DNA from: Rubrobacter indicoceani
GTDB taxonomy: Bacteria > Actinomycetota > Rubrobacteria > Rubrobacterales > Rubrobacteraceae
Assembly: GCF_003568865.1 (NCBI RefSeq)
Contig: NZ_CP031115.1
Location: forward strand, 1,426,001 to 1,490,000
Direction of reading: 5' to 3'
Length of the DNA: 64,000 nt
Shown here: positions 4,347 to 64,000 of the stretch, one piece after another
How positions within the stretch are numbered: the first letter of the stretch is position 1
Layout of the letters: the number at the start of each line of letters is the position of its first letter
Program-made: the position numbers and the translations under genes
The notes under the pieces: model-generated
Databases searched by the model: none
The model's input: the letters and a program-made list of their open reading frames with translations, nothing else
What the model was told of the DNA's origin: nothing

Positions 4347-6803
4347 ATGGCTACAGGCAAACGCGCACCATCCGGTGCATCCGGGAAAAGCAAGAAGGCT
4401 CCGTCTGGGGCTGCCGCGGGGAAGTCGCGCTCCATGAAGCCGGCGAACCCCGCCGCGAAGCGGTCGAGCGGAAGGGCGGTCCGCGAGCCGCTCCGTGAGC
4501 GGCTTTCGGCCTTCGGAGAGCGGCTCCCTACGGGGTTGATCGCGGTGGTCCTTCTCGGGGCGGGGCTTTTCTTTACGGCATCATTTCTCACGGGGATGGG
4601 GGCATTTCTGGGAGATGCCGGGCGGTTCGCTGCGACGCAGCTCTTCGGGGCCGTCGGCCTGACGCTCGCGCCGCTCGTCGCGGCGGCCGGGTTTTTCCTG
4701 CTGATCGGACGCTTCTCCTGGAGGGTGGCGTTCGGGGTTGCGATGGTCTTCTTTGCGCTCTGCATTACGTTTGCGGCGGGGTTACCGGCGAGGTCTTTGT
4801 TTGTCTCGGAAGCTTACTCTGGGGCGGGCGGCATCGTCGGCAGCGGTCTGTACGCCGGGGTCTACGCTCTGGCCGGGATTATCGGGGCGGTCGTCGTACT
4901 GGCCCTGATGTACCTGTTCGGGGCGTCCATGATCTCGGGCGTGACCTTCGCCGCCGCCTTTTCCGCCGTTAGAGGCGGCTCGGAGCGCTTTTCACGGCGG
5001 ATCTCGATCTACGTGAGCGGAAAAAAGACCGAACGGGAGGAACGCGCCGCCGAGCGGGTTGCCGAGCGGGCCGTTTCTCTGCAGGAGGAAGACCCTGACC
5101 GGGACGAAAAAGAAAAGGTTTCGGGGGACGAGCCCAAGGAGTTGAAGCCGGTCTCTCGCGGTCGGCGCCATCAGGACGTAGATGAACTCTACGCCGAACT
5201 CGAGGACGGTCTCGCAAACGGCACGAAACCCGGCCCGGAAAAGAAAATCGCCAAACCGCCCGCAGAGAAAAAGCCGGAAGACCCGTTCGAGGTCGTCCTG
5301 CCGAAAAAGCGGACCGCACAGAACGGAGCGATGGAGAGCCGGGTCGTGGACGGCGAGTACACGCCGCCGCCGTTCTCTCTGCTGGACCCCGGAACGGATA
5401 TCCCGGATCACGACGCGGGTGAGACGAGCCGACGGCTGACGCAGGCGCTGGCCGACCTCGGTGTAGAGGCGACGGTTGTGCGGGCTGTCGTCGGTCCGAG
5501 GGTGACGCGCTACGAGATGCGGCTCGGGAGCGGGGTGAAGGTCGGGAAGATAGCCAACCTCCAGCAGGATATAGCGTACGCGCTCGCGGCGACCGAGGTC
5601 AGGATACTCGCTCCGATACCGGGGAAGAGCGCGGTCGGGGTGGAGGTTCCGAACCTCCGGCCGGCCAAGGTAACGCTCGGGGACGTGTTCGAGGAGTACC
5701 CGGATCACAACGACTGGGCGCTGCCGGTCGCGATGGGCAAGGATATCGCCGGTCGGGCGGTCTTTATGAACCTTGCGGAGATGCCCCACCTGCTCGTTGC
5801 GGGCACCACGGGCAGCGGCAAGAGCGTCATGCTCAACGGGTTGCTCACCTCGCTTCTTCTCACGACCGACCCGAGGCGGGTGAAGATGGTACTTATAGAC
5901 CCCAAGCGCGTGGAGATGGCCCCGTTTGCGCGGATACCGCACCTTATAACCCCGGTTGTAACGGACGTAAAGAAAGCTGCGAACGCCCTTGCGTGGGCGG
6001 TTGCGGAGATGGAGCGGCGCTACGAGGTCCTCGAGGGGCTCGGGGTTCGTTCGCTCGACGGCTACAACGCAAAGGCCGATGCGCCCATGCCGTACGTCGT
6101 GATCGTTATAGACGAGCTTGCGGACCTCATGATGACGAGCGGGGCGAAGGTCGAGGACGCGGTTATCAGGATCGCCCAGAAAGCCCGCGCCGTCGGCATC
6201 CACCTCGTCGTTGCAACCCAGAGGCCGAGCGTAGACGTGATAACCGGGATGATCAAGGCGAACGTGCCGAGCCGCATCGCGTTCGCCGTCTCGTCTCAGG
6301 TGGACAGCCGGGTGATCCTCGATACCCCCGGAGCGGAGGCGCTGCTCGGGATGGGGGACATGCTCTACAAGCCCGTTTCGGCGTCGCGCCCCTCGCGGGT
6401 CCAGGGGGCATTTATCTCGGAGGACGAGGTCGAGCGTATCGTGGACGCAACGGTCGAGTCGAGTCGAAGCCGACGCATAGAGGCCGAGTTTATCGAAGAG
6501 GTAACGGAGACGAAGGTCGAGGCAAAGCAATCCGAAGAGCCGGAGGACGACCTTATCCCGGAGGCCGCCAACTTCGTTGTCGCGACGCAGCAGGCTTCGG
6601 TGAGCGCGGTCCAGAGGCGTTTCAGGGTCGGCTACTCCCGGGCCGGGCGCATCATCGACGCGCTGGAGAGAAAGGGCGTCGTCGGGCCGTACGAAGGCTC
6701 TAAAAGCCGCTCGGTGGTGGCATCCGAGGTAGACCTCGCCTCGATCTTCAACTGGGGCGAGGACGGGGCGAAAGAAGATGCGGAAACGCCCCGGGGCGGG
6801 TGA
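4347..6803 (+). CDS. ftsK: DNA translocase FtsK/SpoIIIE
   Basis: Septum-associated DNA pump (818 aa) that moves the terminus region through the closing septum and activates Xer recombination. A basic, low-complexity N-terminus is followed by about four hydrophobic membrane segments (residues ~55-210), a charged linker, and the RecA-type motor with Walker A GTTGSGKS and the DPKRVEMAPF and VIDELADLMM motifs. The C-terminal gamma winged helix (VSAVQRRFRVGYSRAGRIIDALERKG), which reads polar DNA motifs in model organisms, is intact. A Xer-family gene 10 kb downstream makes a functional pairing plausible, though this is inference. The ATG has no ribosome binding site; see the upstream -10 candidate. 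Confidence 0.96.
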   Translation: MATGKRAPSGASGKSKKAPSGAAAGKSRSMKPANPAAKRSSGRAVREPLRERLSAFGERLPTGLIAVVLLGAGLFFTASFLTGMGAFLGDAGRFAATQLFGAVGLTLAPLVAAAGFFLLIGRFSWRVAFGVAMVFFALCITFAAGLPARSLFVSEAYSGAGGIVGSGLYAGVYALAGIIGAVVVLALMYLFGASMISGVTFAAAFSAVRGGSERFSRRISIYVSGKKTEREERAAERVAERAVSLQEEDPDRDEKEKVSGDEPKELKPVSRGRRHQDVDELYAELEDGLANGTKPGPEKKIAKPPAEKKPEDPFEVVLPKKRTAQNGAMESRVVDGEYTPPPFSLLDPGTDIPDHDAGETSRRLTQALADLGVEATVVRAVVGPRVTRYEMRLGSGVKVGKIANLQQDIAYALAATEVRILAPIPGKSAVGVEVPNLRPAKVTLGDVFEEYPDHNDWALPVAMGKDIAGRAVFMNLAEMPHLLVAGTTGSGKSVMLNGLLTSLLLTTDPRRVKMVLIDPKRVEMAPFARIPHLITPVVTDVKKAANALAWAVAEMERRYEVLEGLGVRSLDGYNAKADAPMPYVVIVIDELADLMMTSGAKVEDAVIRIAQKARAVGIHLVVATQRPSVDVITGMIKANVPSRIAFAVSSQVDSRVILDTPGAEALLGMGDMLYKPVSASRPSRVQGAFISEDEVERIVDATVESSRSRRIEAEFIEEVTETKVEAKQSEEPEDDLIPEAANFVVATQQASVSAVQRRFRVGYSRAGRIIDALERKGVVGPYEGSKSRSVVASEVDLASIFNWGEDGAKEDAETPRGG

Positions 6804-8686: not shown

Positions 8687-9310
8687 GTGGCTGAGATCAC
8701 CCGCCTGAAAGAGAAGGCCGGGCGCGTCCGGGTCTATGCCGACGGCGAGTTCTACGCGGAGATAGACCTCGCCGTCGCGGAGGAGAGCGGGCTCGTCGAG
8801 GGCTTCGATATCTCCGAGAAGGCTCTCCGGGAGGTGTGTCGGGCCGGGGAGTACGCCCTGGCGATGCGTCGGGCTTTCAACCTGCTCTCGTACCGGGCGC
8901 GGTCCCGGGGGGAGATCCGGGACCGGCTCGCCTCAAAGCACGACCACAAGGCGGAGATCATAGACTCCGTGCTCGTCAGGCTCGAAGAACTCGGCTACCT
9001 CGACGACAAGGAGTTCGCCCGCTCCGTGGCCCGGCAGAAGGCCGGGAAATACGGTCCCAGGCGCATAGCCGCAGAGCTTCAGCGGGCCGGGGTCTCAAAA
9101 GAAACCGTCGGGGAGGTCGTGGAGGAAGAATTCTCCGGTCGGGACGAATTCGAAGAGGCTCGTAAGGCGGTTCACAGCCGCTATAATACGGAGGATGTCG
9201 GCGGCGGCGATGCGCTGGCACGGAAGGTCTACGGCTTTCTTGCAAGAAGGGGATACTCCCCGGAGGTCTGCGCCGAAATAGCCGGCGAGTACCGTACGGG
9301 GCAAGGCTAG
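8687..9310 (+). CDS. recX: RecX regulatory protein
   Basis: A 207-residue RecX, which caps and limits RecA filaments. Three-helix repeat units are recognisable (ALAMRRAFNLLSYRARSRGEIRDRLASK, VLVRLEELGYLDDKEFARSVARQK and KYGPRRIAAELQRAGVSKETV). The GTG start follows recA closely and co-transcription is likely. The N-terminal ~50 residues (ITRLKEKAGRVRVYADGEFYAEIDLAVAEE) are the typical leading segment. One ATAATAC heptamer lies inside the gene (9183-9189). Confidence 0.93.
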   Translation: MAEITRLKEKAGRVRVYADGEFYAEIDLAVAEESGLVEGFDISEKALREVCRAGEYALAMRRAFNLLSYRARSRGEIRDRLASKHDHKAEIIDSVLVRLEELGYLDDKEFARSVARQKAGKYGPRRIAAELQRAGVSKETVGEVVEEEFSGRDEFEEARKAVHSRYNTEDVGGGDALARKVYGFLARRGYSPEVCAEIAGEYRTGQG

Positions 9311-11052: not shown

Positions 11053-11997
11053 ATGGTCTTTCTTTTGACGGAGGGACCGTACCGCGATATCGGCGCGGGG
11101 CTTGTCCGGCTCTCGGGCCTCGAAGCCCCTCGCCGCGCCCCGTCGAACCTCCTGACCGTCGAGGACGTTCTTCTCGAACTCCTGAAAAACGCCCGCGACG
11201 CCGGAGCAACCGGGATCTACGTCGCCTCCTCCCTCCACGCCCGGCGCTACCGGACGCTCCTTGTCCTCGACAACGGCGAGGGCATCCCGGCCCAGCACAC
11301 CGAAACCATCTTCGAACCCGGAACGACCAGCCGCCACCTCTCCCGGACCTCCGGCTTCGCCCTGTACCACATAAAGAACCTGGCCCACCAGGCCACCGTC
11401 ACAAACCCCGCAAACCCGACCGCGATCAAAGCCACCCTCGATACCCGCCGGATCCCGGAAAGAACCCTCCAGTCGGCCTCCCGTACCTCGAAGTCAAACC
11501 TCCTCGCCACCGCTACCGACTTCGCCCGCCAGAACCAGAACCTCCGCCTTTACCTCGGAACCCAGTCCAATATCGTCTCAACCCTTCTAAAAAACAACAT
11601 AATACCTCAAAACCTCGCTTCCGGAGCCGATGGTCGGGGTGCTTCGGAGGTGTTCGAGTATGTTCGGGGGCTTGGCTTTGAGATATCGGCGAGGACCTTG
11701 AAGCGGGTTCTCTCGGGTGGCGGGGCGTTCGGTGAGCCGGGCCGTTCCCCGGCCCTCGACTCTGATACCCTGAAAGGCTACAGGCCGCCCCGGAAGGGTC
11801 GTAAGAAAGGCGAGGCCCCGGCACCGGTCCGGCGGGTCCTGCTGGGGGCCGGGGACAGAGCCGGAATAGAAGCCATAATCCGCGAAGCCGCAGCAGCAAA
11901 CTACCTCTCGGTCTCAGACGTGCGGTTTGAATACCGGGAGGGCGGCATCGCTATCACGGCAGATATCGCAGAGCCCGAAGAAGAGTACGATGAATAG
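11053..11997 (+). CDS. GHKL-fold (Bergerat) ATPase of unknown function
   Basis: A 314-residue protein with the ATP-binding fold shared by MutL, Hsp90 and histidine kinases. The N box is LLELLKNARDAGATGI, the G1 box is VLDNGEGIP, then GTTSRH and GFALYHIKNLA. There is no kinase H box or response partner, and no MutL endonuclease motif. The C-terminal half (from residue ~190) is unlike anything I recognise and includes a proline- and lysine-rich linker. It sits between rny and miaB, close upstream of miaB, suggesting a link to RNA or DNA metabolism, but the function is unknown. Strand composition flips mid-gene, at an ATAATAC heptamer at 11599. The start is uncertain: ATG 11053 has no ribosome site, and TTG 11065 is an alternative. 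Confidence 0.75.
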   Translation: MVFLLTEGPYRDIGAGLVRLSGLEAPRRAPSNLLTVEDVLLELLKNARDAGATGIYVASSLHARRYRTLLVLDNGEGIPAQHTETIFEPGTTSRHLSRTSGFALYHIKNLAHQATVTNPANPTAIKATLDTRRIPERTLQSASRTSKSNLLATATDFARQNQNLRLYLGTQSNIVSTLLKNNIIPQNLASGADGRGASEVFEYVRGLGFEISARTLKRVLSGGGAFGEPGRSPALDSDTLKGYRPPRKGRKKGEAPAPVRRVLLGAGDRAGIEAIIREAAAANYLSVSDVRFEYREGGIAITADIAEPEEEYDE

Positions 11998-12005: not shown

Positions 12006-13460
12006 ATGAATAATACACACAGTATAAACAACACGAGCTTGAAAAAAGGTGCAAGACCGGGCCGGTCTTTTCCGGTCTTCCCTGCGGCGACCGGTGGTGG
12101 GGCGGCTGGGGAGGTAGTCTCCGGCGGTCCGGCCTCTGCGGTCAGGCTTGAAGGGGCCGGGAAGACCGCCTGCATCCGGACGTTCGGGTGTCAGATGAAC
12201 GTGCATGACTCGGACAGGATGCGTCGCATGGTCCTTGATGCCGGGTATGCCGAGGTCCAGGCCTACGAAGACGCCGACATCGTTGTTCTCAACACCTGCT
12301 ACGTCCGCGAAAACGCCGTAGACCGGGTCCGGGGACACCTCGGGGAGATAAACCGCCTCAAAAAAGAAGGCCGCGTCAAGAAAGTCGCCCTCACGGGCTG
12401 CGTCGGCGCCGCTGATGAAGCAGGGGAACTCCAGAAACAATTCAACGTGGACCTTGTATTGGGCACTCATAATACGTATGAGCTTGCGGAGTTCGTGGGG
12501 TTGCCGACTATGGCCGAGACCTACACGCCCGAGTTGCCGGGGACAGAGGGGGAGCATTCCGCCTTTGTCACTATAATGACCGGGTGCAACTACAAGTGCA
12601 GCTACTGTATCGTGCCAACGGTCCGGGGCAGGATGGTTTGCCGTCCGTTTGAGAACGTGGTCTCCGAGGTAGAGCGGCTGGTTGCCGGCGGGACAAAGTA
12701 CATAACCCTGCTCGGGCAGACCGTCGATGCGTGGCGGGGGGATGGCTTGAGGTTTTGTGATCTCCTCCTGCGGGTCTCTGAGGTTGCTCCGAGGGTCTCG
12801 TTCACGACAAGCCACCCGTCCAACATGGAGGATCGGACCCTGCGGCTTATAGGTGAGAGCGACACCATCGTCAAGAGGCTTCACCTGCCCGTACAGTCCG
12901 GGTCCGACAGGATGCTCGGGATCATGCACCGGGGCTACCGGTCCGAGCGTTACCGGCGGAAGATAGAGGTCTTTCGGGGGGCGGTCCCGGGCGGGACGCT
13001 CAGCACGGACCTGATAATCGGGCATCCCGGCGAGACCGAAGAGGACCATGAGGCGACGCTCTCGCTTGTTGAGGACTGCGCCTTTGACTCCGCGTACGTC
13101 TTCAAGTACTCGCCCCGGCGCGGAACTGAAGGGGCCCGGATGTTCGAGGCCGGCGAGGCGATACCCGAGAACGTTGTTCAGCGGCGCTTCTCCGAGGTGC
13201 TCGGGTCCATAGAGAAAAACGCCCTCGAGCGAAACCGGAGCAAGGTCGGCGGGGAGGAGGAGGTCTTTATCAGGCACGGGGTTTCGGATTCCGGACGGGT
13301 CATCGGCGAGACCTGGAGTGGACACGCCGTTTATCTCTCCTGTGATGCCGTCGCACCTCCGGCCCCGGGCGACTACGTCCGGGCCACCATCACCTCAGCC
13401 GGGCCGCACGCGCTCTACGCCAGCCAGAGAACCCTCCAGACAACAGAACCGGACCGTTGA
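12006..13460 (+). CDS. miaB: tRNA-2-methylthio-N6-dimethylallyladenosine synthase MiaB
   Basis: Radical-SAM methylthiotransferase acting on i6A37 of tRNA (484 aa). The UPF0004 domain carries the auxiliary-cluster cysteines (TFGCQMN at Cys62, NTCYVREN, TGCVG). The radical-SAM motif CNYKCSYC follows at about residues 194-201, and a C-terminal TRAM domain is present. About 50 residues precede the conserved core. They are low-complexity, so the true start could be further in, although ATG 12006 has a modest AGAGG site. miaB, miaA and hflX form one overlapping unit. Two ATAATAC heptamers fall at its very start (12010) and at 12469. Confidence 0.95.
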   Translation: MNNTHSINNTSLKKGARPGRSFPVFPAATGGGAAGEVVSGGPASAVRLEGAGKTACIRTFGCQMNVHDSDRMRRMVLDAGYAEVQAYEDADIVVLNTCYVRENAVDRVRGHLGEINRLKKEGRVKKVALTGCVGAADEAGELQKQFNVDLVLGTHNTYELAEFVGLPTMAETYTPELPGTEGEHSAFVTIMTGCNYKCSYCIVPTVRGRMVCRPFENVVSEVERLVAGGTKYITLLGQTVDAWRGDGLRFCDLLLRVSEVAPRVSFTTSHPSNMEDRTLRLIGESDTIVKRLHLPVQSGSDRMLGIMHRGYRSERYRRKIEVFRGAVPGGTLSTDLIIGHPGETEEDHEATLSLVEDCAFDSAYVFKYSPRRGTEGARMFEAGEAIPENVVQRRFSEVLGSIEKNALERNRSKVGGEEEVFIRHGVSDSGRVIGETWSGHAVYLSCDAVAPPAPGDYVRATITSAGPHALYASQRTLQTTEPDR

Positions 13461-14392
13461 GCGAGGACCCGAGGTGCCTCGTCGTCTACGGTCCGACCGC
13501 AAGCGGCAAGAGCGACCTGACAGATGCCCTTCACGACGCCGCCGGTGACTGCGAAAAAGAACCCGGCAGAAAGACCACCATCCTCTTTGACTCCATGCAG
13601 GTCTACCGGGAGATACCGAACCTCACAAACCAGCACCGCCGAAGGCCTGCGGAACTCTCCGGCATCGTCTCCGTACTGGACGAGTGGTCGGTTGCAAGGC
13701 ACAGAGCCGCCGCCGATTCCCTTTTCGCCGAGCACGAACACGAAAAAGCACAGATAATACTCGAGGCCGGCACGGGCCTGTACCTGAACGCCTTTCTTTT
13801 CGGGTTCCCGCTTGCGGAGCGGGTGCCGGAGTATATCCGCCGAGAGGCCGAGAGGCAGGTCTTTGAAGCGCAGAGACCGGCGGCCTTGAGCGGAGGCCGT
13901 CCCACCAATGCCCGGCGGGCGGTGAGGACGGAAGAGTTGAAGCTGGCCGGTCTGGAAGACGGCAGGGGCTCGGTCTGGGAGGGTGGGATGCGTGTCAGGG
14001 CTTCGGTCTTGTACCTGCGTCCCGATGACCGGAGTGCTCTTGACCGGAACATTGCCTCCCGCACGGGATCCATAGTCCAGAACGGCCTCGAAGAGGCGGC
14101 CCTGCTCTCGGGCTACCGGGAAGAAGCCGTCGGTAAATCAGTACTGGATGCCATCGGGGTGAGGGAGATGATCTCCGTCTTCGGGGGTGAGATCCCGGAA
14201 CACGAGGCCGAGAAAAGGATATCCGCCCGGACCCGGAGGCTTGCGCGAAGGCAGATAACCTGGTTCGATAAACTTACCAGAGCCCTCAAGGACAGCCCGA
14301 ACCTCCACTCCCTCTCGGTTGTTCATGACCCCGTAAACATAAAGCATAGTATTTCTAGGCTTGATGATATAATCCGTTGGTGGACGGAATAA
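13457..14392 (+). CDS. miaA: tRNA dimethylallyltransferase MiaA
   Basis: Adds the dimethylallyl group to A37 of tRNA, making the substrate of MiaB. Visible are the P-loop GPTASGKS, DSMQVYREIPNLTNQ (substrate-binding Asp and Tyr), and AGTGLYLNAFLFG. At 311 residues it is of normal length but divergent: the usual HLID segment reads SGIVSVLDEW, and the C-terminal zone is shortened. The start TTG overlaps the miaB stop as TTGA, the coupling also used by rluB. The ending overlaps hflX by 16 bp. Identity is firm; reduced conservation is notable. Confidence 0.92.
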   Translation: MSEDPRCLVVYGPTASGKSDLTDALHDAAGDCEKEPGRKTTILFDSMQVYREIPNLTNQHRRRPAELSGIVSVLDEWSVARHRAAADSLFAEHEHEKAQIILEAGTGLYLNAFLFGFPLAERVPEYIRREAERQVFEAQRPAALSGGRPTNARRAVRTEELKLAGLEDGRGSVWEGGMRVRASVLYLRPDDRSALDRNIASRTGSIVQNGLEEAALLSGYREEAVGKSVLDAIGVREMISVFGGEIPEHEAEKRISARTRRLARRQITWFDKLTRALKDSPNLHSLSVVHDPVNIKHSISRLDDIIRWWTE

Positions 14393-15909
14393 CGGGAAAG
14401 CGGGAAGACGGGGCTCTACCGGCTCTGGACGCTGGTTTACGGCGGGTGATACTGGTTGGTGCGGGTGAGGAGCGTTACACCGCCGAGCTTGGCCGTCTGG
14501 CGACTACGCTCGGGCTCGAGGTCGTGGGCGTGGTCGAGCAGAACCGCCGGGACAACACGGGCTACATCGGCCGGGGCAAGAGGCTCGAGCTCGCGGAGGA
14601 GATCCGGCGTGTCGAGGCCGGGATGGTGGTGACGGACGACGAGCTTACCGCTTCGCAGTCAAGGGTGCTCGAGGCAGACTGCGAAGCCCCAGTTATAGAC
14701 CGTACCGAACTCATAATACGAATCTTTCACGAACACGCCCGGGACGCGCCGAGCAAGCTGCAGGTAGAGCTTGCGGAACTCTCATACCTTCTACCGAGGA
14801 TCAGGGGTATGTGGCGTCACCTCGAGAGGCTTGGCGGCGGTTCGGCCGGTTCGGCCGGCTCTTCCGGGAGCAGCGCCGCCGGGGGTCGGGCCACAAGAGG
14901 ACCGGGCGAGCAGCAGCTCGAGTACGACCGGCGTCAGATCCGGACCCGCATGGAGCGTCTGAAGAAGCGCCTTGATGATGAGAGCGCGTCAAGACGGACG
15001 AGAAGAGCGAGGCTGAAGTCAAGCGAGATACCGAAGGTTGCCCTTGTCGGATATACAAACGCGGGAAAGACAACGGTCCTGAACGCCCTGAGCGGCGCCG
15101 ACCGCATCCCGAGGGACCGACTCTTCGAGACCCTTGAAACAACAACAAGAAAAGTAGAGGGCGAAGAAAGCGAGAACCCGTCAGGGAAAGCGGATCAAAG
15201 CCCCGGCCACAGCCTCAGCTACAGCCTCAGCTACAGCCTCAGCTACAGCCTCAGCTACAGCCTCAGCTACAGCCCCGGCTTCACCGTGACCGACACCGTC
15301 GGTTTTATAAGAAAGCTTCCGACCCAGCTTGTCGAGTCATTCTCCTCGACGCTAGAGGCCGCAGATGACGCCGACATACTAGTTATCTGCGCCGACGCTT
15401 CTAGCCCCGACCTCGAAGAGGAGATACAGACGGTGAAGAACACGCTGTCTCTGTCGGATCTGGCGGATGGAAACGGGAAGCTCCCCGGAAGAGACGGCCG
15501 GGGCGATGCTCTGAAACGCAGTAAAAGCAATAATACACAGGGCACGGGGGGCAGCAAGCCGGTGATCCTGCTGTTGAACAAGGGGGACCTCCTGACAGAG
15601 GATGAGATTTCGGAGCTTGGAAGGAGCTTTCCGGAGGGTCTTGTCTTGGATCACGGATCGGGGTACGGGGCATTGAAGGGCAGGATCTTTAATTGTATTT
15701 CAGAGATGCGCAACAGGATGAGGCTCCTGATACCTCACGGTGACTATTCGGAGGTTACGAGGCTCTACGGTCTTGCAACGATACACGAGCGGGTAGAGTC
15801 CGAGGCAGGGGTGATTCTTGACGTGAGCCTTCCGGAGGAGGTAACGAAAGAGTACGAGCGGTACCTTTTCGCTTACGACGGGGAGCCACCGGAGAACAAC
15901 TCCCGGTGA
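14377..15909 (+). CDS. hflX: GTPase HflX with expanded low-complexity insertions
   Basis: Ribosome-associated GTPase (510 aa, longer than the usual ~420-440). The N-terminal HflX domain (TLGLEVVGVVEQNR, YIGRGK, VLEADCEAPVIDRTELIIRIF) and G domain are present, with G1 GYTNAGKT, G3 DTVGFIRKLP and G4 NKGD. Three insertions stand out. A Ser/Gly/Ala run splits the glycine-rich LGGG...TRGPGE loop. Five perfect SLSY repeats (residues ~279-298) lie between switch I and G3. A ~25-residue polar segment precedes G4. All catalytic motifs survive. TTG 14377 overlaps miaA; GTG 14380 is an alternative. Confidence 0.93.
   Translation: MVDGITGKREDGALPALDAGLRRVILVGAGEERYTAELGRLATTLGLEVVGVVEQNRRDNTGYIGRGKRLELAEEIRRVEAGMVVTDDELTASQSRVLEADCEAPVIDRTELIIRIFHEHARDAPSKLQVELAELSYLLPRIRGMWRHLERLGGGSAGSAGSSGSSAAGGRATRGPGEQQLEYDRRQIRTRMERLKKRLDDESASRRTRRARLKSSEIPKVALVGYTNAGKTTVLNALSGADRIPRDRLFETLETTTRKVEGEESENPSGKADQSPGHSLSYSLSYSLSYSLSYSLSYSPGFTVTDTVGFIRKLPTQLVESFSSTLEAADDADILVICADASSPDLEEEIQTVKNTLSLSDLADGNGKLPGRDGRGDALKRSKSNNTQGTGGSKPVILLLNKGDLLTEDEISELGRSFPEGLVLDHGSGYGALKGRIFNCISEMRNRMRLLIPHGDYSEVTRLYGLATIHERVESEAGVILDVSLPEEVTKEYERYLFAYDGEPPENNSR
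15211..15270 (+). repeat. 12-bp minisatellite inside hflX (5 perfect copies)
   Basis: The unit AGCCTCAGCTAC is repeated five times without a mismatch and encodes Ser-Leu-Ser-Tyr each time. Because the unit is a multiple of 3, copy-number change keeps the frame. It lies between switch I and the G3 motif of the GTPase domain. Confidence 0.97.
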
Positions 15910-16712: not shown

Positions 16713-16745
16713 GCTGGTCAGCCTGACCCGGCCTTCTCTGTGATT

Positions 16746-16777
16746 CGGTTTCCGATAAGTACGATTCTCGGAAACCG
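16746..16777. other. dif-like inverted repeat beside the Xer gene (candidate recombination site)
   Basis: CGGTTTCCGA (16746-16755) and TCGGAAACCG (16768-16777) are perfect inverted arms. Read as a Xer site, 11-bp arms GTTTCCGATAA (16748-16758) and TTCTCGGAAAC (16765-16775) match at 10 of 11 positions around a 6-bp centre GTACGA. It lies in the 71-bp gap where all genes converge, 7 bp beyond the stop of a tyrosine recombinase. No T-tract follows on either strand, which argues against a plain terminator. The right arm lacks the canonical TTATGT of XerD sites. Confidence 0.45.
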
Positions 16778-16783
16778 GACGGT

Positions 16784-17713
16784 TCAGTTTATCGGCAGCG
16801 TATTGTATCTGTGGGCTTTGCTGGCCAGTTCCTCCGCGCGTCTTATGTACCTCATAGTGGTCTTCGGGTCGCGGTGTCCTAGAAACTGCTGGATCACGAT
16901 CAGGGGCGCCTCGTTTACGGCCATGTTGGTTCCGACGGTGTGTCTTATGGAGTGCGGGGAGATTTGCTTGGTTATTCCGGCTCGCTCGGCGTATTTCTTT
17001 ATTATGTACCGGACCGATCTCGTAGTCAGGGGCCTGCAGTTGCCTTCCCGGGACTGAAAGAGGGGTCGCTTCATATCAGACTGTGAGGCGAAGCTCATGC
17101 CGCACCTGAGAACGAAGTTCTGAACAAGGGTCCAGAGTTCGGGTGAAACGGAGACGTTTCGGACCCTCTCGCCCTTACCGACCACCCTGAGGCTCAGGGT
17201 CTCTGCACCGTCGCTGTCCGCACCCATATCCCTGAAGTCCCCGACGACGACCCCGACTACCTCGGCCTCCCGAAGCCCGCAGGAGGCCATCAGGGCGATC
17301 ATCACATAGTCCCGGTAGTTCGACGTTCTCGCGGCAGAGAGCATCCTTGATAGCTCATCATCGGTCAGTACGTTGTAGGAGGAATCCTGCTCGACCTTCG
17401 GACTCCTTGCAAAAAACCGGATCGCCTCCGGGTTTACCCGCGTGAAACCGCCCATAAAGGTAAAGGTCAGGAAACGCCTCAGGGCCGCAAGCTTTTTTGC
17501 AACCGTAGCTCGGGAATACAGACCCATTATCCGCTCCCTGTAGATGCTGATGTCCTCGGCCGTCAGGGATCCCAGATCCTCCTTCCCGAGACGTTCCTCC
17601 ATAAAACACACGAACATCTTTAGTTCGGTATTATACGTTTTCTTTGTCTGAGGGCTGGTGAGGGTTCTGAGGTAGGTCTCTATAAGGCTTTCGGTTGTGG
17701 GTCGGGTGGTCAC
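16784..17713 (-). CDS. Tyrosine recombinase, Xer family
   Basis: A 309-residue site-specific recombinase. An N-terminal SAM-like core-binding domain (LIETYLRTLTSPQTKKTYNTEL) precedes the catalytic domain with all active residues: Arg148 (CGLREAE), Lys180, His254 and Arg257 (HSIRHT), His280 (FLGHRD) and Tyr289 (TMRYI). Length and architecture fit XerC/XerD or a single-protein Xer rather than a phage integrase, and there is no tRNA or prophage nearby. The GTG start has a weak ribosome site. It ends the rsiG-FHA-ftsR-apt gene row. The dif-like repeat directly downstream suggests its target; this is inference. Confidence 0.88.
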   Translation of the reverse strand: MTTRPTTESLIETYLRTLTSPQTKKTYNTELKMFVCFMEERLGKEDLGSLTAEDISIYRERIMGLYSRATVAKKLAALRRFLTFTFMGGFTRVNPEAIRFFARSPKVEQDSSYNVLTDDELSRMLSAARTSNYRDYVMIALMASCGLREAEVVGVVVGDFRDMGADSDGAETLSLRVVGKGERVRNVSVSPELWTLVQNFVLRCGMSFASQSDMKRPLFQSREGNCRPLTTRSVRYIIKKYAERAGITKQISPHSIRHTVGTNMAVNEAPLIVIQQFLGHRDPKTTMRYIRRAEELASKAHRYNTLPIN

Positions 17714-19184: not shown

Positions 19185-19197
19185 TTTGTGTATTATG

Positions 19198-21466: not shown

Positions 21467-22119
21467 GATCCCCCACCCCCGTCATCGTCAGGTTCGTAGA
21501 TCCTCTTCATCATAAGGCCCGAAGCCTCCCCGTAGGCCGCCCGGCCTCTCGTAGTATTATCTGGATATATCGGCTCTCCGATGCGGGCCGAGAATTTCTT
21601 GCCCCGGAGCCTCTCAAGAGGAGACGGTATCTCCCCGATAAAGACCGGAAGGACCGGCGCCCCGGACCTTGCAGCGAGCATTATAGCCCCGTTTTTGGCC
21701 CCCGAGTCCTCACCGGCTGACTGGCTTCGGTGGCGCTCGGCTTTTCTTCTGCGCGTCCCTTCGGGGAAGATGCCGAGCGCCCAGCCGTCTTCCAGGTAGC
21801 GCAGGGCCGCCCGCAGAGCGCCCCGCCCCCCGCCCTGGCGGTCAACCGGAAACGCTCCGAGAAGGCCGAAGAGGCCCACGAGCGGTTTCAGGAAAAGTTC
21901 TTTCTTCGCCATCCACTGAACCCTTCTCGGCACCGCCATGCACACAAAGACCGGATCGAAGAAGCGCCAGTGATTCGAGGCAACGACAACGGGACCGCTC
22001 CTCGGGACGCGGTCTTCACCCCGAACTTCGAAACCAAGCAAGACGCGCCCGGCAAGGATGACGGCGGCCCGGACAAGGGCGTACCGGCGCGACATGCCGC
22101 TCTCGTCAAGCCTCGGCAT
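21463..22119 (-). CDS. 1-acyl-glycerol-3-phosphate acyltransferase (PlsC family)
   Basis: Phospholipid-synthesis acyltransferase (218 aa). The catalytic HX4D motif is in SNHWRFFDPVF, the substrate motif in FPEGTRRR, with an N-terminal hydrophobic segment (YALVRAAVILAGRVLLGFEV). The gene is inserted between cmk and der, and cmk-plsC-der is a common actinobacterial and clostridial order. The stop-start overlap with der is 4 bp. One heptamer (GTATTAT, 21554-21560) lies in its 3' third. Confidence 0.92.
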   Translation of the reverse strand: MPRLDESGMSRRYALVRAAVILAGRVLLGFEVRGEDRVPRSGPVVVASNHWRFFDPVFVCMAVPRRVQWMAKKELFLKPLVGLFGLLGAFPVDRQGGGRGALRAALRYLEDGWALGIFPEGTRRRKAERHRSQSAGEDSGAKNGAIMLAARSGAPVLPVFIGEIPSPLERLRGKKFSARIGEPIYPDNTTRGRAAYGEASGLMMKRIYEPDDDGGGGS

Positions 22120-22851: not shown

Positions 22852-24204
22852 CTACCCCCCCAGAAAACGGAGCCGCTCGAAAAAGTCCGGCAGCGTCTTT
22901 GTAACGCAGGACGGGTTCCTGATCCGAACGCCCCCGACAAGAAGCCCCACCAGCGAAAAAGCCATCGCAACCCGGTGATCGTCATAAGTCTCTATCGCCG
23001 CCGGAACGATCTCCTTAACGGACTTTACGGGTATTATGAGTAGACCATCGCGAGATTCGCGGGTCTGGACGCCGAGGCGTCCGAGCTCTGTGGCGACGGC
23101 GGTTATCCGGTCGGTCTCCTGGTGGCGGGTGTGTTCTATGTTGGTTATGGAGGTCGGGGAGGATGCAAAGGGCGCGATGGCGGCGAGGGTGAGGAAGGTG
23201 TCGGAGATCTCGTTCATATCCACCTCGACGCCGGAGAGCTTTTCGTTCTGTGGTCCCCGGACTTCGGTGTAACCCGCTCCGTATTCGACCTCGCAGCCCA
23301 TAAGGCGAAGAACCTCGACGAAACGGAGGTCGCCCTGGGAGGAGGACCGGTCGAGCCCCTCGACCCTGACCCTTCCTCCGGTGAGGGCCGCGGCGGCAAA
23401 GAAGTACGACGCCCCGGAGGCGTCCGGTTCTACGGGGAACTCGGTAGCGGTGTAGGTCCGGGGGCTGATGCGGTAGACGCCGGAGCCGTCCTCGGAGACC
23501 GCAACCCCGAAGGCGGACATCACCTCGCGGGTGATATCTATGTAGGGCTTCGAGACAAGGTCTCCCGCAACGCGCAGCGTAACCGGGTTTCTGGCGCAGG
23601 GCGAGCCGAGCATGACCCCGCTAAGAAACTGGCTGCTCCTGCCGCTCCGGACGCGGGCCTCTCCGCCCTCGAGCCCGCCGCCGCGGACCACGAGCGGGAA
23701 GCGCCCCTCCCGGTCGGCGTAGTCTATCTTTGCCCCCAGAGCGCGCAGGGCCTCGACAAGGTCCGAGATCGGACGTTCGCGCATCCTCGGCACCCCGTCA
23801 ACCCGATAGGGTCCGGCCCCGAGCGCGAGCGCGGAGGGCAGAAAGCGGGCGGCGGTCCCGGCGTTCCCGACAAAGACCTCCACGTCCCTGTTCGGTATCT
23901 CCCCGCCCCGCCCGACTATCCGCACGTCGCCGTCCTCGACAGAGACCTCGAAGCCGAGGTCCGAGAGAGCCTTCATAAGCCAGAAGGAATCGTCCGACAG
24001 AAGCGGGTTTCCGAGCCCGGACTCACCATTCGCCAGAGCGCAGCAGATCATAGCCCTGTTCGTTACAGATTTCGACCCCGGAACCCGCAAGACCGCATCC
24101 ACCGGACAGACGAGCGGCTCTATAAGAACCTCAGCCGGGAAATCTCCCCTCACCTCCCGAACCCCGAAATCCCGCCCCGGGACGCCCCGGACTCTAGCGG
24201 TCAT
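22852..24204 (-). CDS. aroA: 3-phosphoshikimate 1-carboxyvinyltransferase (EPSP synthase)
   Basis: Sixth step of the shikimate pathway (450 aa). Signatures: VPGSKSVTNRAMI (shikimate-3-phosphate site), GNAGTAARFLPS (the glyphosate-contact loop), and TYDDHRVAMAFSL near the C-terminus. The start ATG 24204 overlaps the 3' end of rluB by 11 bp. The other shikimate genes in the window (aroQ, aroB, aroK, aroC) are 16 kb away, so aroA is in a separate operon. Two ATAATAC heptamers flank its two ends (23031, and 24364 in rluB). Confidence 0.97.
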   Translation of the reverse strand: MTARVRGVPGRDFGVREVRGDFPAEVLIEPLVCPVDAVLRVPGSKSVTNRAMICCALANGESGLGNPLLSDDSFWLMKALSDLGFEVSVEDGDVRIVGRGGEIPNRDVEVFVGNAGTAARFLPSALALGAGPYRVDGVPRMRERPISDLVEALRALGAKIDYADREGRFPLVVRGGGLEGGEARVRSGRSSQFLSGVMLGSPCARNPVTLRVAGDLVSKPYIDITREVMSAFGVAVSEDGSGVYRISPRTYTATEFPVEPDASGASYFFAAAALTGGRVRVEGLDRSSSQGDLRFVEVLRLMGCEVEYGAGYTEVRGPQNEKLSGVEVDMNEISDTFLTLAAIAPFASSPTSITNIEHTRHQETDRITAVATELGRLGVQTRESRDGLLIIPVKSVKEIVPAAIETYDDHRVAMAFSLVGLLVGGVRIRNPSCVTKTLPDFFERLRFLGG

Positions 24205-24928
24205 CCCCTCTGCCCCCTCCGGAACCCCGCCCGTAAAACCCGCCGACCTCCTCGCCCGAAAGCTCCCTGATCGCCCCCGGGGCAAGCCCCGCAAGGGATA
24301 CCCCCCCGACCCGGACCCGCGACAGAGAGACGAGCCGGAGGCCGACGGCGGCACAGGCCCTTCGTATTATGCGGTTTTTTCCTTCGTGGATGGTCATCGA
24401 GATCTCAAGGTTCCTTCCCTTTCTGCGGGGTCTGGTCGTCTGAGGCGGGAGCATCGGGCCGTCATCGAGGTCGGGTCCCCGGGCGAGGGCTTCGAGCGCG
24501 CCGTCGGGGAACTGCGGGTCTATGAGCAGTCGGTATTCCTTCTCGACCTCGGAGGAGGGATGGGCGACGAGGTTGGCGAAGTCGCCGTCGTTGGTCAGGA
24601 GGATCAGACCCGTAGTCCCGGCGTCGAGCCTGCCGACGGGGATGAGGCCGGGGACGCCTTTCGGCATGAGGTCCGAAACGGTCGGACGCCCGAAGTCGTC
24701 CTTCATGGTCGTCAGGTATCCCTCGGGCTTGTTCAGCGCGAGGTAGACCTGTGAGCGCTGCGGTCTCACCGGGCGTCCGTCAAGAAAGACCCGGTCGCCC
24801 GGTGAAACCTTCGCCCCGAGATCGGCGACCGACCCGTTTACCGCGACGCGACCGGAGATTATAAGCGCCTCGGCCTTTCTTCTCGACGGCGCGGCCCCCG
24901 CCCGGGCAAGGTACGCCTGTAGCCTCAA
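24194..24928 (-). CDS. rluB: 23S rRNA pseudouridine synthase, RluB type
   Basis: Makes pseudouridine in helix 89-90 of 23S rRNA (244 aa). An N-terminal S4 domain (LRLQAYLARAGAAPSRRKAEALI) precedes the catalytic domain with GRLDAGTTGLILLTNDGD, whose Asp is the nucleophile, and GKNRIIRRACAAVG. TTG 24928 is chosen: it overlaps the scpB stop as TTGA, is preceded by GGGGGA, and gives the family N-terminus. The frame stays open far upstream only because it runs antisense-like through scpB and its repeats. Confidence 0.92.
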   Translation of the reverse strand: MRLQAYLARAGAAPSRRKAEALIISGRVAVNGSVADLGAKVSPGDRVFLDGRPVRPQRSQVYLALNKPEGYLTTMKDDFGRPTVSDLMPKGVPGLIPVGRLDAGTTGLILLTNDGDFANLVAHPSSEVEKEYRLLIDPQFPDGALEALARGPDLDDGPMLPPQTTRPRRKGRNLEISMTIHEGKNRIIRRACAAVGLRLVSLSRVRVGGVSLAGLAPGAIRELSGEEVGGFYGRGSGGGRGDDR

Positions 24929-30808: not shown

Positions 30809-31595
30809 CGCGCACCCGCCCCCATAGATCCAGCCACCTTAAAACTCCAACCTCCTGTATTAAACGGGATATCGAGGAAAACTCCGCAACCAGCGTCAAC
30901 GAGACTACCAGAAGCCCCGCAACTATCCACACCGCACCCGGCCCGACCGATAGAACGAGAAGCCCGACAGCCGAACCGCAGGCCGCCGCTCCGGCATCCC
31001 CGAGCATGATACGCCCTCTGACGTCGAAATAAAACAGGGCGCATATTCCCCCGACAAGCCCCGATAAGGCAGACGCAGCCCACCCCGGAGCGGCGAACAG
31101 CACGACGAGCGCCGGCAGCAGGGTGAACTTTATCGCCCTTCCGGGCCGTACGTCGAAGAGGTTCCCGAGGTTCGCCCAGCCCGCGAGCAGAAAAGCCCCG
31201 ACAAGCGCCGAAACCCCGACCCCGAAGACCCACACCCCGACAAGGAGCGCGCCCCCGCCGAAGGCGAGTATCTTTACCAGCCCGGTGGTCAGCCGCCTGG
31301 CCAGAAGCGCCCCGACGTGCCCCCGAAAACCCCGCGCTCCGCCGTCTCCCCAGACGTCGTCCACAAACCCGACCACCACCGCAAGCAGCAGATACGATGA
31401 AAACACAAAGAAATCCCCGCCGGTGCCGGAGAAAAGCGTCAGGAGTATTATCGGCAGCAGCACAGCGCCCGCTGCGGTCGGGATCTGTTTGCCGGTGAAG
31501 TTGGGTTGCGTCGGTAGGAACTTTCCGGCGGGGGCGAGGGCCAGAAGGGTTACGGCTGCGCCGATCAGGAAGAGAAGCGGCGCGTTCACGGCCAC
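30801..31595 (-). CDS. MraY/WecA-like phosphosugar-prenyl-phosphate transferase
   Basis: A polytopic membrane protein (264 aa, about eight hydrophobic segments) of the polyprenyl-phosphate N-acetylhexosamine-1-phosphate transferase superfamily. The Asp-rich motif [11 protein letters not shown], the [12 protein letters not shown] segment and [12 protein letters not shown] correspond to the three conserved loops. It is shorter than MraY (~320-360 aa) and lacks the HHH-containing fifth loop in recognisable form, so the substrate is open. It overlaps the GT2 gene by 10 bp and pyrG by 8 bp. A role in making a lipid-linked envelope glycan is inferred. Confidence 0.82.
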
Positions 31596-33104: not shown

Positions 33105-34265
33105 CTAGATCCCGAGGAGCAGCCGGAGCCTGATCGCAAGTAAGTTAAAGATATCGGCCATCTGCTCGGAAGAATACACGACCGCCGATACCGCGGTCAG
33201 CCCCGCCGCTACAAGCGCAATGAGCAGGACCGGCGAAACCCTTGTCGGGTAGAGCTTTGACACCCCCTTGGCGTCCACGAGCCTCGGCCCGACTTTCAGC
33301 CGGGTCAGAAAGGTCGAAGACGCCCCGCGCCGCCCCTTGTCGAGAAACTCGACGAGCCCGACGTGCGTCCCGACGGCGACTATCAGCTCCGCCCCGCACT
33401 GCTCGGCGATGAGTATCGCGATATCCTCCGAAAGCCCCGGCGCTCGCAGGGTCGGGACGTTTTTTATCCCGGCTCTGCCGAGCGGCTCCAACCCCGGCGC
33501 GCCGCCGTTCGGGTAGGCGTGTACCAGCACGCTCCTCGCCTCCCGCATCCCGCGCTCCGAGACGGAGTCCATGTCCCCGAAGAGCAGGTCCGGTCTGCAG
33601 CCGACCTCAAGAAGCGCGTCGGCCCCGCCGTCCACGGCGATGACAAACGGCCTCTCACCCCGGATATACGGCCTGAGGGCGATGAGATCCTGCCGGTAGT
33701 CGTAGCCGCGAACCACGATAAGAACCTGCCTGCCCCGTACCCTCCGCGCTATCTCCTGCGGAACGTCGAAGGTCGAGAACAGCAGATCCCGCTCGACGTG
33801 CATGAACTCGACGGTGTTCTTTGCAAAGCTCTCGAGCGCGGCCCCGACGGCCTCCCGACTCTCCCGGAGCCGCCGCTCGGCCGTCTCCTCATCGAGATGC
33901 TCCCCCCGCGCAACAAACCGCCCGCCCCTGTACAGAGAGTCCCCCCGAAGCTCCACCTCATCACCGTCCCGAACCCCCTCAAACGCCGCCTCCCCAACCC
34001 GGTCCAGTATGTAAACCCCCGCCCGGGCCAGTATAAAAGGCCCGAGGTTCGGATAGGTCCCCGTCGCGGACCCCGCCGCGTTCACAACCGCCCGAACCCC
34101 CGAGTCGACCAGCGTCTCAGCCGTTACCCGATCAAGGTTCTCGTGATGTATTATGGGTATAGTTTCCTCGGAGAGCCGGGCGACGATGTCTTTTGTCTTG
34201 CGTCCGAGAACGGCTCGTCCGGTGAGGTTCATCCCGTTGGGCGGGCTGTTTTCCCCGTTTCTCAC
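33105..34265 (-). CDS. steA: SteA-like cytokinetic protein
   Basis: A 386-residue protein with a large cytoplasmic domain resembling thiamin pyrophosphokinase folds (VIAVDGGADALLEVGCRPDLLFGDMDSVSE) and a C-terminal membrane helix (VSPVLLIALVAAGLTAVSAVVY). This matches SteA, which with SteB supports septum splitting in corynebacteria. The gene overlaps recN by 4 bp, in the order recN-steA-steB as in M. tuberculosis. A heptamer (34148-34154) sits in its 5' region, coding for part of PIIHHE. Confidence 0.85.
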   Translation of the reverse strand: MRNGENSPPNGMNLTGRAVLGRKTKDIVARLSEETIPIIHHENLDRVTAETLVDSGVRAVVNAAGSATGTYPNLGPFILARAGVYILDRVGEAAFEGVRDGDEVELRGDSLYRGGRFVARGEHLDEETAERRLRESREAVGAALESFAKNTVEFMHVERDLLFSTFDVPQEIARRVRGRQVLIVVRGYDYRQDLIALRPYIRGERPFVIAVDGGADALLEVGCRPDLLFGDMDSVSERGMREARSVLVHAYPNGGAPGLEPLGRAGIKNVPTLRAPGLSEDIAILIAEQCGAELIVAVGTHVGLVEFLDKGRRGASSTFLTRLKVGPRLVDAKGVSKLYPTRVSPVLLIALVAAGLTAVSAVVYSSEQMADIFNLLAIRLRLLLGI

Positions 34266-59015: not shown

Positions 59016-59033
59016 ATCACTCAAATGAGTGAT
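59016..59033. promoter_or_regulatory. 18-bp palindrome at the regulator start
   Basis: ATCACTCA and TGAGTGAT form perfect 8-bp arms around AA. It covers the first possible start codons of the SARP-like regulator and is a plausible operator for a dimeric repressor or for autoregulation. It overlaps a tiny 10-codon frame (ATG 59025) in another phase. Confidence 0.5.
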
Positions 59034-62000: not shown

Positions 62001-62694
62001 AGAAGCGGAGAAAACCTACCGGCAGGCTATAAACCTTTTACATACCAGCTACGAATTGTCCGAAGCGGCGGATAGTTCTTCCGGCAAGGCGGACGCTCTG
62101 GCTCTCCTCGCAAAGATCCTCCACCGCTCGCTCTACCGGCCCGGAGAAGCGCTTGACGCTTACGAAGAGGCAGCCGGGATCTACCGCCGCCTGAATGAAA
62201 CCGCAAAGCTCCGTAAGCTCCTCATGGGCCTCGCCGGATTGCGCTGGCAAATCCGAGACTTCTCAGGCTCCGCCGAGGTTTACAATGAGGCCCTCGAACT
62301 GGCCCGCGCTCAATCCGAAGCGGCGCCTGAAGCCGCCGCCCTCGCCAGCCTCAGCGTTGTCTACCGTGAGGCAGGCGACCTCAGGCGATCCCTGCGGGCC
62401 GGCAAAGACGCCCTCGGGCTACTTCGAGAACTGGAAGACCTGCAGGCCGAAGCTTACGTTCAGAGCAGCCTGGCCGAGAGTTACCGAAAGCTCGGACACT
62501 ATCCGAGCGCCCTCTCATGCCTCAAACGTTCGCTGCGGCTCAGGCAGAGGGTCGGCGACGCCGAAGGCGAGGTCAGGGTCCTCCATGATATGGCCAGAGT
62601 CAGTGAACCCCTCGAAGAAGCGGCATCAAAGAAAGGACTGGAGAAAGCACCGTCGCAGACGCGAACCGCTCAACAAAAAGCTCTTCGAAGGTGA
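59029..62694 (+). CDS. SARP/BTAD-ATPase-TPR transcriptional regulator
   Basis: A 1221-residue STAND-type activator. Order: OmpR-type winged helix (LRIKLFGEFRVWRSGEIV, KTRSLLKLLLTCPGRVFSRDEILEALW, SRYIISQRPGYMF; residues ~30-125), bacterial transcriptional-activation domain (residues ~130-270), an AAA ATPase with Walker A GEAGVGKTRL and Walker B LFVDDVQWAD, then more than ten TPR-like helical repeats to the end. Such proteins use ATP and TPR ligand binding to switch on neighbouring genes. The stated start is the longest frame. GTG 59116 with AAGG 8 nt upstream matches the domain start better. Divergent from DUF1326, with operator candidates between. Confidence 0.9.
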   Translation: MMRPVSSAARVEHKTSRSISGFEFEKAGFVGLRIKLFGEFRVWRSGEIVGNEKWDRQKTRSLLKLLLTCPGRVFSRDEILEALWTDSSPASAERSLRVTVSLLRRALEPNLEHGPGSRYIISQRPGYMFDRESACEVDTWEFEKHLKNAEEARKAANHDEAIRMYRLALDLLQGEFLAEEKYEDWAFTAREDWRKRHLVALSELSECLAQKGRYTEAIESCERAMALDRYREDLRRRLILYHYCAGEQTLALRAYRCYARRLKEELGASPSPELEKLKDQVEAREVPGVDGSRRYPKPRHPLKLPYSLSRTHFVGRDREYALLVERLGEAGEGSGGAVAVEGEAGVGKTRLVEEFLGYARTRGVRVLSGRCYEQELSSPLEPILDALGPPSVVDKKASELLWATGLHENSVRLYRTLTQRLIHESSTSGLVLFVDDVQWADAATLDFLTYAARRLSGERVLLVMTYRREEAPALAGWIQHLADRRSVKILNLERLSYDNTLELLSRLSSRSFDGLRSMADFLYRESEGNPFYTVEYLRWLIESGTVQIDARRRISGLKSEALREDELPSSVRSLLRARFSGLDDQAKEFLNTAAVVGRSFDLSLISAIGLHRENDILALVELLMDSSLIVEAPEKNKYHFSHDKLRQALYKDIGSLRQRNLHLKVARTLEKLGSEPAELAHHYVRAQAWPEAFDRLIEAADKAKEGYAWKTALDYYSRALEIVDRLPDSDKTKFGLLTARENLLEHMDRQEERAASVREMFELAQRLGDRTRLAEVHIRRIGTLMALQDPEGASRAGEEALKIFRELQDPAGEARAHREIGYVRWMTRDYAGALEANLRSLWLHRELGYRKGEAGDAGNIAHAYRGLGDFDSALRWNEEAVRIDSELGDKLGESFRLNSVASIHRERGNLKAALSLHVKSLSLLKELGAKNLMATQHINCGRVQLSLGAPEGALEHFRAAARLGRETGYARDEGYALVGVGVCLEQSGASKEAEKTYRQAINLLHTSYELSEAADSSSGKADALALLAKILHRSLYRPGEALDAYEEAAGIYRRLNETAKLRKLLMGLAGLRWQIRDFSGSAEVYNEALELARAQSEAAPEAAALASLSVVYREAGDLRRSLRAGKDALGLLRELEDLQAEAYVQSSLAESYRKLGHYPSALSCLKRSLRLRQRVGDAEGEVRVLHDMARVSEPLEEAASKKGLEKAPSQTRTAQQKALRR

Positions 62695-63025: not shown

Positions 63026-63063
63026 CTTTTGTAGTGGCGCAGCATGCTGCGCCACTACAAAGG
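63026..63063. other. 34-bp perfect palindrome between convergent genes
   Basis: 63028-63061 reads the same on both strands: 17-bp arms TTTGTAGTGGCGCAGCA and TGCTGCGCCACTACAAA with no loop, extended to 63026/63063 by a G-T wobble and a C-G pair. It ends the accessory block, between the DUF4242-like gene and pyrD. T-run left and A-run right is the wrong order for an intrinsic terminator, so it may be a mobile-element end or a cruciform. Confidence 0.75.
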
Positions 63064-63127: not shown

Positions 63128-64000
63128 CTACGCGCTCCGCAGTTCCCCCGTCAACTGGGCAGCCGTAAGCCCGACCTGCTGTAAATACCCCGCAAACTCG
63201 GTAAGCATCTTCTCCGGCTCCCGCACGAAACTGGCCGTCCCGACCTGTACCGCCGTAGCCCCCGCGAGCATGAACTCCACGACATCTTCCCCGCTTGCTA
63301 CCCCGCCGCTCGCCACGACCGGAACGTCCACTGCGCCCGCTACTTCGTACACAGCCCGCAGCGCAACGGGCTTTATGGCCGGTCCCGAAAGCCCGCCCCG
63401 AACAAGCTTCTTTCTTGAATTCACGTCTACCGTGAGCGCCGGGATCGTGTTTATCGCCGTTACCGCGTCCGCTCCCGCTTTCTCGGCTGCAACCGCGTTG
63501 GCGACCACGCCCTCAAAGGTGAGCTTGACGATAAGCGGCTTCTTCGTCGTCTCCCGGGCCGCCGCAACGACCCCTTCGACGCTCCCCGGTCCGGCACAGA
63601 ACGTCAGCCCCCCGTGCTCGACGTTCGGACACGACAGGTTCATCTCGATGGCCGATACTCGCTCATCCGCCGCTACGCGATCGACGATCTCCCGGAACTC
63701 CTCCACCGTGTCCCCCGCCACCGAGACAAAGAGCGGCACTCCAACGTCGTAGTCACCCAGATGCGCCATAAACTCCTCGACCCCCGGGTTCTGAAGCCCG
63801 ATGGAGTTGACCATCCCGCCATATGTCTCCGCGATGCGCGGCGTCGGGTTCCCGTCACGCGCCCTCGGAGTGGTCGTCTTCGGGAGGATCGCCCCGTAAA
63901 CCCCCCCGACCTCAACGAGCGATTCCTTGGACATCGTTCCCGATGCGGGTATTATGGGATTCTTCAGGGTCAGGCCACAGAGTTCGACCCGGGTATCTGC
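63128..64000 (-). CDS. pyrD: Dihydroorotate dehydrogenase, class 1B (5' end cut off)
   Basis: Pyrimidine synthesis, dihydroorotate to orotate. The frame runs to the right edge of the window; the start is outside. LCGLTLKNPIIPASGTM, YGAILPKTTTPRARDGNPTPR, SIGLQNPG, and MNLSCPNVEHGG with the class-1B catalytic Cys (class 2 has Ser) identify it, so a PyrK electron-transfer partner is expected next door. ATG 63934 is internal. A heptamer at 63949-63955 encodes part of NPIIPA. Confidence 0.95.
   Translation of the reverse strand, partial: ADTRVELCGLTLKNPIIPASGTMSKESLVEVGGVYGAILPKTTTPRARDGNPTPRIAETYGGMVNSIGLQNPGVEEFMAHLGDYDVGVPLFVSVAGDTVEEFREIVDRVAADERVSAIEMNLSCPNVEHGGLTFCAGPGSVEGVVAAARETTKKPLIVKLTFEGVVANAVAAEKAGADAVTAINTIPALTVDVNSRKKLVRGGLSGPAIKPVALRAVYEVAGAVDVPVVASGGVASGEDVVEFMLAGATAVQVGTASFVREPEKMLTEFAGYLQQVGLTAAQLTGELRSA

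Follow-up and report, generated by a model that had tools for sequence, protein, structure and literature searches.

A probable dif site beside a single active Xer recombinase, and a polar ATAATAC word, at the predicted chromosome terminus of Rubrobacter indicoceani and its relatives

The window analysed here is a stretch of 64,000 nucleotides of the Rubrobacter indicoceani genome (G000, contig C1, positions 1426001-1490000 of 2,856,967 bp). It contains ftsK and, about 10 kb further on, a convergent intergenic gap of 71 bp (16713-16783) between a plus-strand gene for a RibD_C-domain protein and the minus-strand gene xer (Table 1). Within this gap lies a nearly palindromic element, which we predict to be the dif site of the chromosome and refer to as dif below. 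Its arms are symmetric at 10 of 11 positions, and at 12 of 13 when the element is extended to 16746-16777. Gap, arms and centre are as an earlier note on this DNA had described them, except that the distance from the xer stop to the site, given there as 7 bp, measures 8 bp. By itself the palindrome is weak evidence because 1.3 elements of 11-6-11 geometry and equal grade are expected by chance in 64 kb and two are present in the window. A perfect 13-6-13 palindrome at 63029-63060, in a convergent gap close to the window end, is probably a terminator. The significance of the element beside xer comes from its position and its conservation.

Table 1. Features of the R. indicoceani window and of Rubrobacter plasmids (window coordinates unless an accession or contig is given)
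Feature	Position	Strand	Remarks
ftsK	4347..6803	+	818 aa; FtsK_alpha, FtsK_SpoIIIE and FtsK_gamma domains; gamma domain 6540-6722
Predicted dif site	16748..16775		Arms GTTTCCGATAA (16748-16758) and TTCTCGGAAAC (16765-16775), 11 bp each; 6-bp centre GTACGA (16759-16764)
xer	16784..17713	-	309-aa tyrosine recombinase, complete catalytic residues
ATAATAC	9183..9189	+
ATAATAC	11599..11605	+
ATAATAC	12010..12016	+
ATAATAC	12469..12475	+
ATAATAC	13754..13760	+
ATAATAC	14713..14719	+
ATAATAC	15530..15536	+	Innermost left copy
ATAATAC	17628..17634	-	Innermost right copy, within xer; kept in the four relatives compared
ATAATAC	19190..19196	-
ATAATAC	21554..21560	-
ATAATAC	23031..23037	-
ATAATAC	24364..24370	-
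ATAATAC	31445..31451	-
ATAATAC	34148..34154	-
ATAATAC	63949..63955	-
Convergent ATAATAC	G000 C2:106337/106627
Convergent ATAATAC	G000 C3:35954/36299
Convergent ATAATAC	NZ_CP007515
Convergent ATAATAC	NZ_CP007516
Convergent ATAATAC	NZ_CP007517
Convergent ATAATAC	NZ_CP045122:30529-33025
Convergent ATAATAC	NZ_CP045120:181225-181818

Since dnaA is located at C1:25 of the contig, dif (at 1,442,748) lies at 50.5% of the chromosome, and GC skew (20-kb samples), the polarity of the word CGGGGC and the polarity of ATAATAC all change sign at it. The proposal that the window may hold the chromosome terminus is thus supported, and the cumulative GC-skew peak, which could have placed the terminus elsewhere, falls at the site. 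This peak is found within 2.5 kb of dif in R. indicoceani and in three further genomes (G001, G013 and G014); in G024 and G028 it is about 15 kb and about 43 kb off the reference point used in those genomes, which counts against the dif reading. The polarity of ATAATAC flips at the site in five further Rubrobacteraceae genomes as well. It had also been claimed that all genes and all ATAATAC copies on both sides face the site. This holds for the word, with 15 of 15 copies in the window, and is slightly too strong for the genes, as a convincing plus-strand gene to the right of the site (BTAD/AAA/TPR domains, 59029-62694) faces away from it.

The DNA beyond xer in related genomes contains the same element, sometimes in flipped orientation. 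A pattern search of the family found the site in 23 of 39 genomes and the reversed control pattern gave no match; a weight matrix added five more (G003, G004, G019, G020 and G024), making 28 of 39, and in six long regions scored with this matrix the next best site scored far lower. The 11 genomes of the 39 in which no site was matched, a point against the dif reading, are mostly fragmented assemblies. The site is normally present in a single copy per genome and shares a contig with xer in 23 of the 28 genomes, mostly within about 2 kb of the gene and 14 kb from it in two; in four of the other five genomes the site lies 8.6-10.2 kb from ftsK. The repeat beside xer is thus conserved among relatives, as had been anticipated, and a canonical dif (CGATAATNNACATTATGTCAA, allowing 3 mismatches), which would have spoken for a site elsewhere, is absent from the R. 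indicoceani genome; across the 39 family genomes this search gave just two matches, each with 3 mismatches. A stricter form of the family pattern matched 19 contigs in 84,980 species, of which 16 are from Rubrobacter, Rubrobacteraceae or unplaced actinobacterial MAGs and three from Methylobacterium. The FtsK gamma domain is encoded in 38 of the 39 genomes; where its gene shares a contig with dif, the two are about 10 kb apart. The recognition helix of the domain reads GYSRAGRIIDALER identically in the genomes read, whereas the E. coli domain of known structure has GYNRAARIIEQME. Also against the dif reading, one genome that is 98% complete, G011, has no close xer orthologue and no dif match near ftsK (G011:C10:13000-32999); the ATAATAC copies in that region are still all on one strand.

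As stated earlier from the letters, the recombinase next to the site is complete. It combines a SAM-like N domain with a Phage_integrase domain, carries the whole catalytic set (R in GLR, K in GKG, HxxR, H and Y) and scores 149, 133 and 131.9 bits against the XerC, XerD and XerA profiles, respectively, in every case under the cut-off of the model. Orthologues are present in 35 of 39 Rubrobacteraceae genomes (E<=1e-40), and none was found outside the family among 296 genomes of the phylum searched (E<=1e-45). Conversely, of 60 phylum genomes drawn, 53 have matches to the XerD model (E<=1e-55), typically two each, but none of the five Rubrobacteraceae in this sample has any, and no XerD above the TIGR02225 cut-off was found in the 39 family genomes. 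In a tree with XerC and XerD proteins the Rubrobacter Xer forms a clade of its own on a long branch; several XerC rows of this tree also have very long branches. Finally, a second Xer paralogue of about 280 aa is encoded outside the window, about 1.3 Mb from dif (G000:C1:2739781-2740533). It has kept the tyrosine and is otherwise catalytically dead (GLR to GVT, GKG to GPG, HxxR to MxxR, GH to GV).

How the site would be read can be approached from the 27 sites with full flanks, whose consensus is TTCSSATAA-N6-TTCYCGGAA. The four innermost bases of the centre are variable. At one position the two arms are always unlike (T/C), so that the site retains a direction. The three outer pairs of arm bases are complementary in 27, 24 and 25 of the 27 sites, as compared to 17.7, 13.4 and 18.8 expected if the two arms varied independently, and on the xer tree the two outermost pairs require several changes apiece, the third pair a single one. 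Such paired changes would be expected if one DNA-binding protein read both arms, and it is therefore likely that a single Xer does so. A hairpin constraint would also pair the outer arms; changes in the inner stem, however, are uncompensated in two genera, which speaks against it, and the invariant asymmetries and the fixed 6-bp spacer argue for a site that acts as DNA. Both arms are of the XerC type, as exemplified by GGTGCGCATAA of E. coli and ACTTCCTAGAA of B. subtilis, and neither is like the XerD arm.

From these data we infer Xer/dif recombination at this locus, and we consider it very probable that the palindrome is the chromosomal dif of Rubrobacteraceae and that the adjacent gene encodes the Xer acting on it. 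As is general for dif, the site is normally unique per chromosome and opposite the origin, lies at the skew shift point and has two 11-bp arms flanking a 6-bp centre. The reading rests on the position at the terminus, the normally single copy, the conservation throughout the family, the fixed 11-6-11 geometry and an orientation that is free to flip relative to the neighbouring genes, and also on the failure to find a canonical XerD or dif, the intact catalytic set of the neighbouring Xer and the presence of ftsK about 10 kb away. Joined chromosomes would then most likely be separated at this predicted dif opposite the origin in Rubrobacter and its relatives, apparently with one active recombinase in place of the usual two.

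The arrangement can be compared with several known systems. With XerCD/dif of E. coli, B. subtilis and most Actinobacteria it shares a single-copy 28-bp site of 11-6-11 geometry near the GC-skew shift point, the presence of FtsK and the likeness to the XerC arm, here in both arms. Different from XerCD/dif, however, the site has no XerD arm (TTATGTNAA), no canonical XerD was found and the second conserved paralogue has lost catalytic residues, xer lies beside the site and ftsK is at the terminus too. One recombinase gene next to a site at the terminus is also found in XerS/difSL of Streptococcus and Lactococcus and in XerH/difH of epsilon-proteobacteria, to which the earlier note had likened the locus. 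This analogy holds in that one active Xer is encoded next to the site; the system is not XerS/difSL, as the Xer scores 68 bits for XerS, where the cut-off is 267, and is closer to XerC, XerD and XerA, and difSL is an atypical site of 31 bp as opposed to the nearly palindromic 28 bp with a 6-bp centre in Rubrobacter. An XerH model was not among the profile matches of the protein. Archaeal XerA/dif offers a single Xer, a 28-bp site with nearly matching arms that is sometimes beside the gene, and polar sequences pointing at the site (PMC2958812), all as in Rubrobacter. Yet the XerA score is below the cut-off of 220 bits, the family has FtsK with a gamma domain, the site is 180 degrees from the origin, and the polar word, rather than being a 4-mer spread over the genome, is a 7-mer that keeps largely to the terminus. 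Taken together, the Rubrobacteraceae arrangement looks like a further system with a single active Xer, acting on a standard 28-bp, nearly palindromic site. We found no paper on dif or the terminus of Rubrobacter; Kono 2011 gives dif for 66 of 66 single-chromosome Actinobacteria and does not name Rubrobacter in the main text, and a prediction for some Rubrobacter genome may be among the tables of that study (PMC3025954).

But could the dead paralogue have a part in this? It is conserved in all 20 genomes of the family that were checked and has scores with the XerA, XerC and XerD models, and since one arm position is invariantly unlike between the arms, it could be a second arm-binding partner at dif, with the active Xer on one arm and the dead protein on the other as in a degenerate XerCD. 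We regard this two-protein variant as unlikely, as the coupled changes of the outer arm bases point to one reader for both arms, and the paralogue is encoded far from dif and has no identified link to it.

There is little probability that the site and its recombinase are a resident lox-like system of a mobile element or plasmid that is at the terminus by chance. Recombinases of plasmids and phages do use the same palindrome design: the site of R. marinus (G028) is identical at 30 of 34 positions to Vlox, the site of the single Cre-like recombinase VCre (PMC5964202 Table 1), and the design is found in viral contigs, where 17 of 50 sites have a tyrosine-recombinase reading frame no more than 300 bp away as compared to 5.2 expected, although the 17 cases are not independent because these elements are related to each other. 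Against a chance resident stand the vertical conservation through the family, the position at the terminus wherever it is testable and the lack of any canonical alternative dif system found in the family. An ancient capture of a lox-like system is possible. In any case, VCre/Vlox provides an experimental analogue in which one recombinase reads a symmetric site (PMC5964202), with the difference that Vlox serves a Vibrio plasmid whereas the Rubrobacter system is chromosomal, vertically conserved and Xer-like. The TTCSSATAA-N6-TTCYCGGAA design is often seen beside tyrosine recombinases in unrelated mobile elements (viral contigs, Methylobacterium), and two viral contigs contain several copies each. 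Two additional dif-like sites with different centres, at G035:C185:2617 and G021:C87:52460, are possibly borne by elements.

An equally slight chance is left for the palindrome being merely a transcription terminator between convergent genes, since the stable plus-strand hairpin (-26.7 kcal/mol for the 71-nt gap, z -2.5), the convergent gap and the covariation of the outer stem bases, which would suit a terminator, are set against a conserved stem sequence and 6-nt spacer with the uncompensated inner changes mentioned above, and against a site that normally occurs once per genome, changes orientation from genus to genus and is as far as 14 kb from xer elsewhere in the family. The terminator and Rfam readings were rejected, as there is no T-run, a terminator scan made no call and Rfam gave no match.

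The 15 ATAATAC copies in the window compare with 0.77 expected, and all are on the plus strand to the left of dif and on the minus strand to its right. On the whole R. indicoceani chromosome 32 of 32 copies point toward dif, 29 of them within 215 kb and three beyond. Within 100 kb on either side of dif in five genomes, 84 copies point toward and none away, and with an enrichment of about 50-fold over distal samples ATAATAC is the most terminus-enriched polar 7-mer there; single-base variants are not comparably enriched. Exceptions to the polarity in G013 and G014 are all more than 300 kb from dif. Several positions are common to different genera and others are lineage-specific. Where R. indicoceani has ATAATAC, relatives may have ATCATCC or ATCATCA, and copies can therefore arise by synonymous change of an Ile codon. 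The upstream flank is A/T-rich from -10 to -4, with C common at -3 and -1, as judged from rows across genomes that are partly homologous. The canonical KOPS/SRS words GGGNAGGG and GAGAAGGG were tried as polar signals and rejected, their ratios of 244:108 and 64:22 toward versus away not exceeding those seen for 8-mers of equal composition.

Convergent ATAATAC groups at plasmid replicons were unexpected for a signal directed at dif. In seven of seven distinct Rubrobacter plasmids examined such a group lies at the 3' end of the replication-initiator gene or close to it; five, from two genomes, were found first, and two examined afterwards as a test agreed. The first five have one convergent pair each, with the copies 116-345 bp apart, and one of them has an additional single copy. 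The plasmids of G001 match those of R. radiotolerans, and the pair begins at the stop of the initiator gene or directly behind it; between the copies, the initiator-sense strand of the R. radiotolerans plasmids is strongly pyrimidine-rich. In the plasmids of R. indicoceani itself one copy is inside the 3' part of an initiator-like reading frame and one past its stop. The group is 82 bp after the initiator gene on the R. tropicus plasmid (200 of 205 kb examined) and, on the whole R. marinus plasmid, about 0.9 kb past a gene that encodes a DnaA N-terminal domain and adjoins the initiator. Cumulative GC skew has its minimum, the presumed origin, at the ATAATAC group in two plasmids, with oppositely skewed arms, and is ambiguous in a third.

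What, then, would read this word? Our best guess, held at a little under even chances, is that ATAATAC is the FtsK-orienting sequence, an AT-rich counterpart of KOPS that would orient FtsK toward dif. Like KOPS/SRS and AIMS it is a short polar motif that reverses at dif and becomes denser toward it, and the KOPS of Lactococcus is an A-rich heptamer too (review PMC5357621). Different from KOPS/SRS and AIMS, it is AT-rich in a genome of about 63% GC, nearly absent outside the terminus region and free of exceptions near dif, and it has convergent copies at plasmid replicons. Against a role for FtsK stand these same plasmids, since no dif-like site was found between their ATAATAC copies.

A polar replication-fork barrier of the Ter type, which would make a fork trap around dif, is clearly the less probable reader. 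The orientation without exception near dif and the near absence elsewhere would suit such a trap, as would the A/T-rich upstream flank, which suggests a site longer than 7 bp, and the convergent pairs on plasmids. The orientation on the chromosome fits Tus/Ter or RTP/Ter; the GC skew of plasmids speaks against a strong barrier. In two of them the skew minimum coincides with the pair beside the initiator and the arms are oppositely skewed, so that replication forks seem to exit through copies in the would-be blocking orientation. The remaining probability goes to some other reader. Leaving the identity of the reader aside, we lean slightly toward the view that ATAATAC with its A/T-rich upstream flank is an undescribed polar segregation or termination signal common to the chromosomes and plasmids of the family, with one reader, FtsK or another protein, and that it marks the dif region and the plasmid replicon core. 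The word, nearly confined to the terminus region and the plasmid replication genes, is the most novel part of our findings; we found no paper that has ATAATAC as a word.

A deep-branching actinobacterial family seems to have swapped XerCD/dif for a single active Xer and a nearly palindromic, Vlox-like dif. Its Xer would be a new and simpler case for how FtsK controls one recombinase, ATAATAC makes what FtsK reads in divergent bacteria a direct binding question, and the sites predict dif, and hence the terminus, in fragmented Rubrobacteraceae genomes. In the five genomes compared, a second polar word, AGATAGAG, points toward dif 81 times and away from it nine times within 100 kb on either side.
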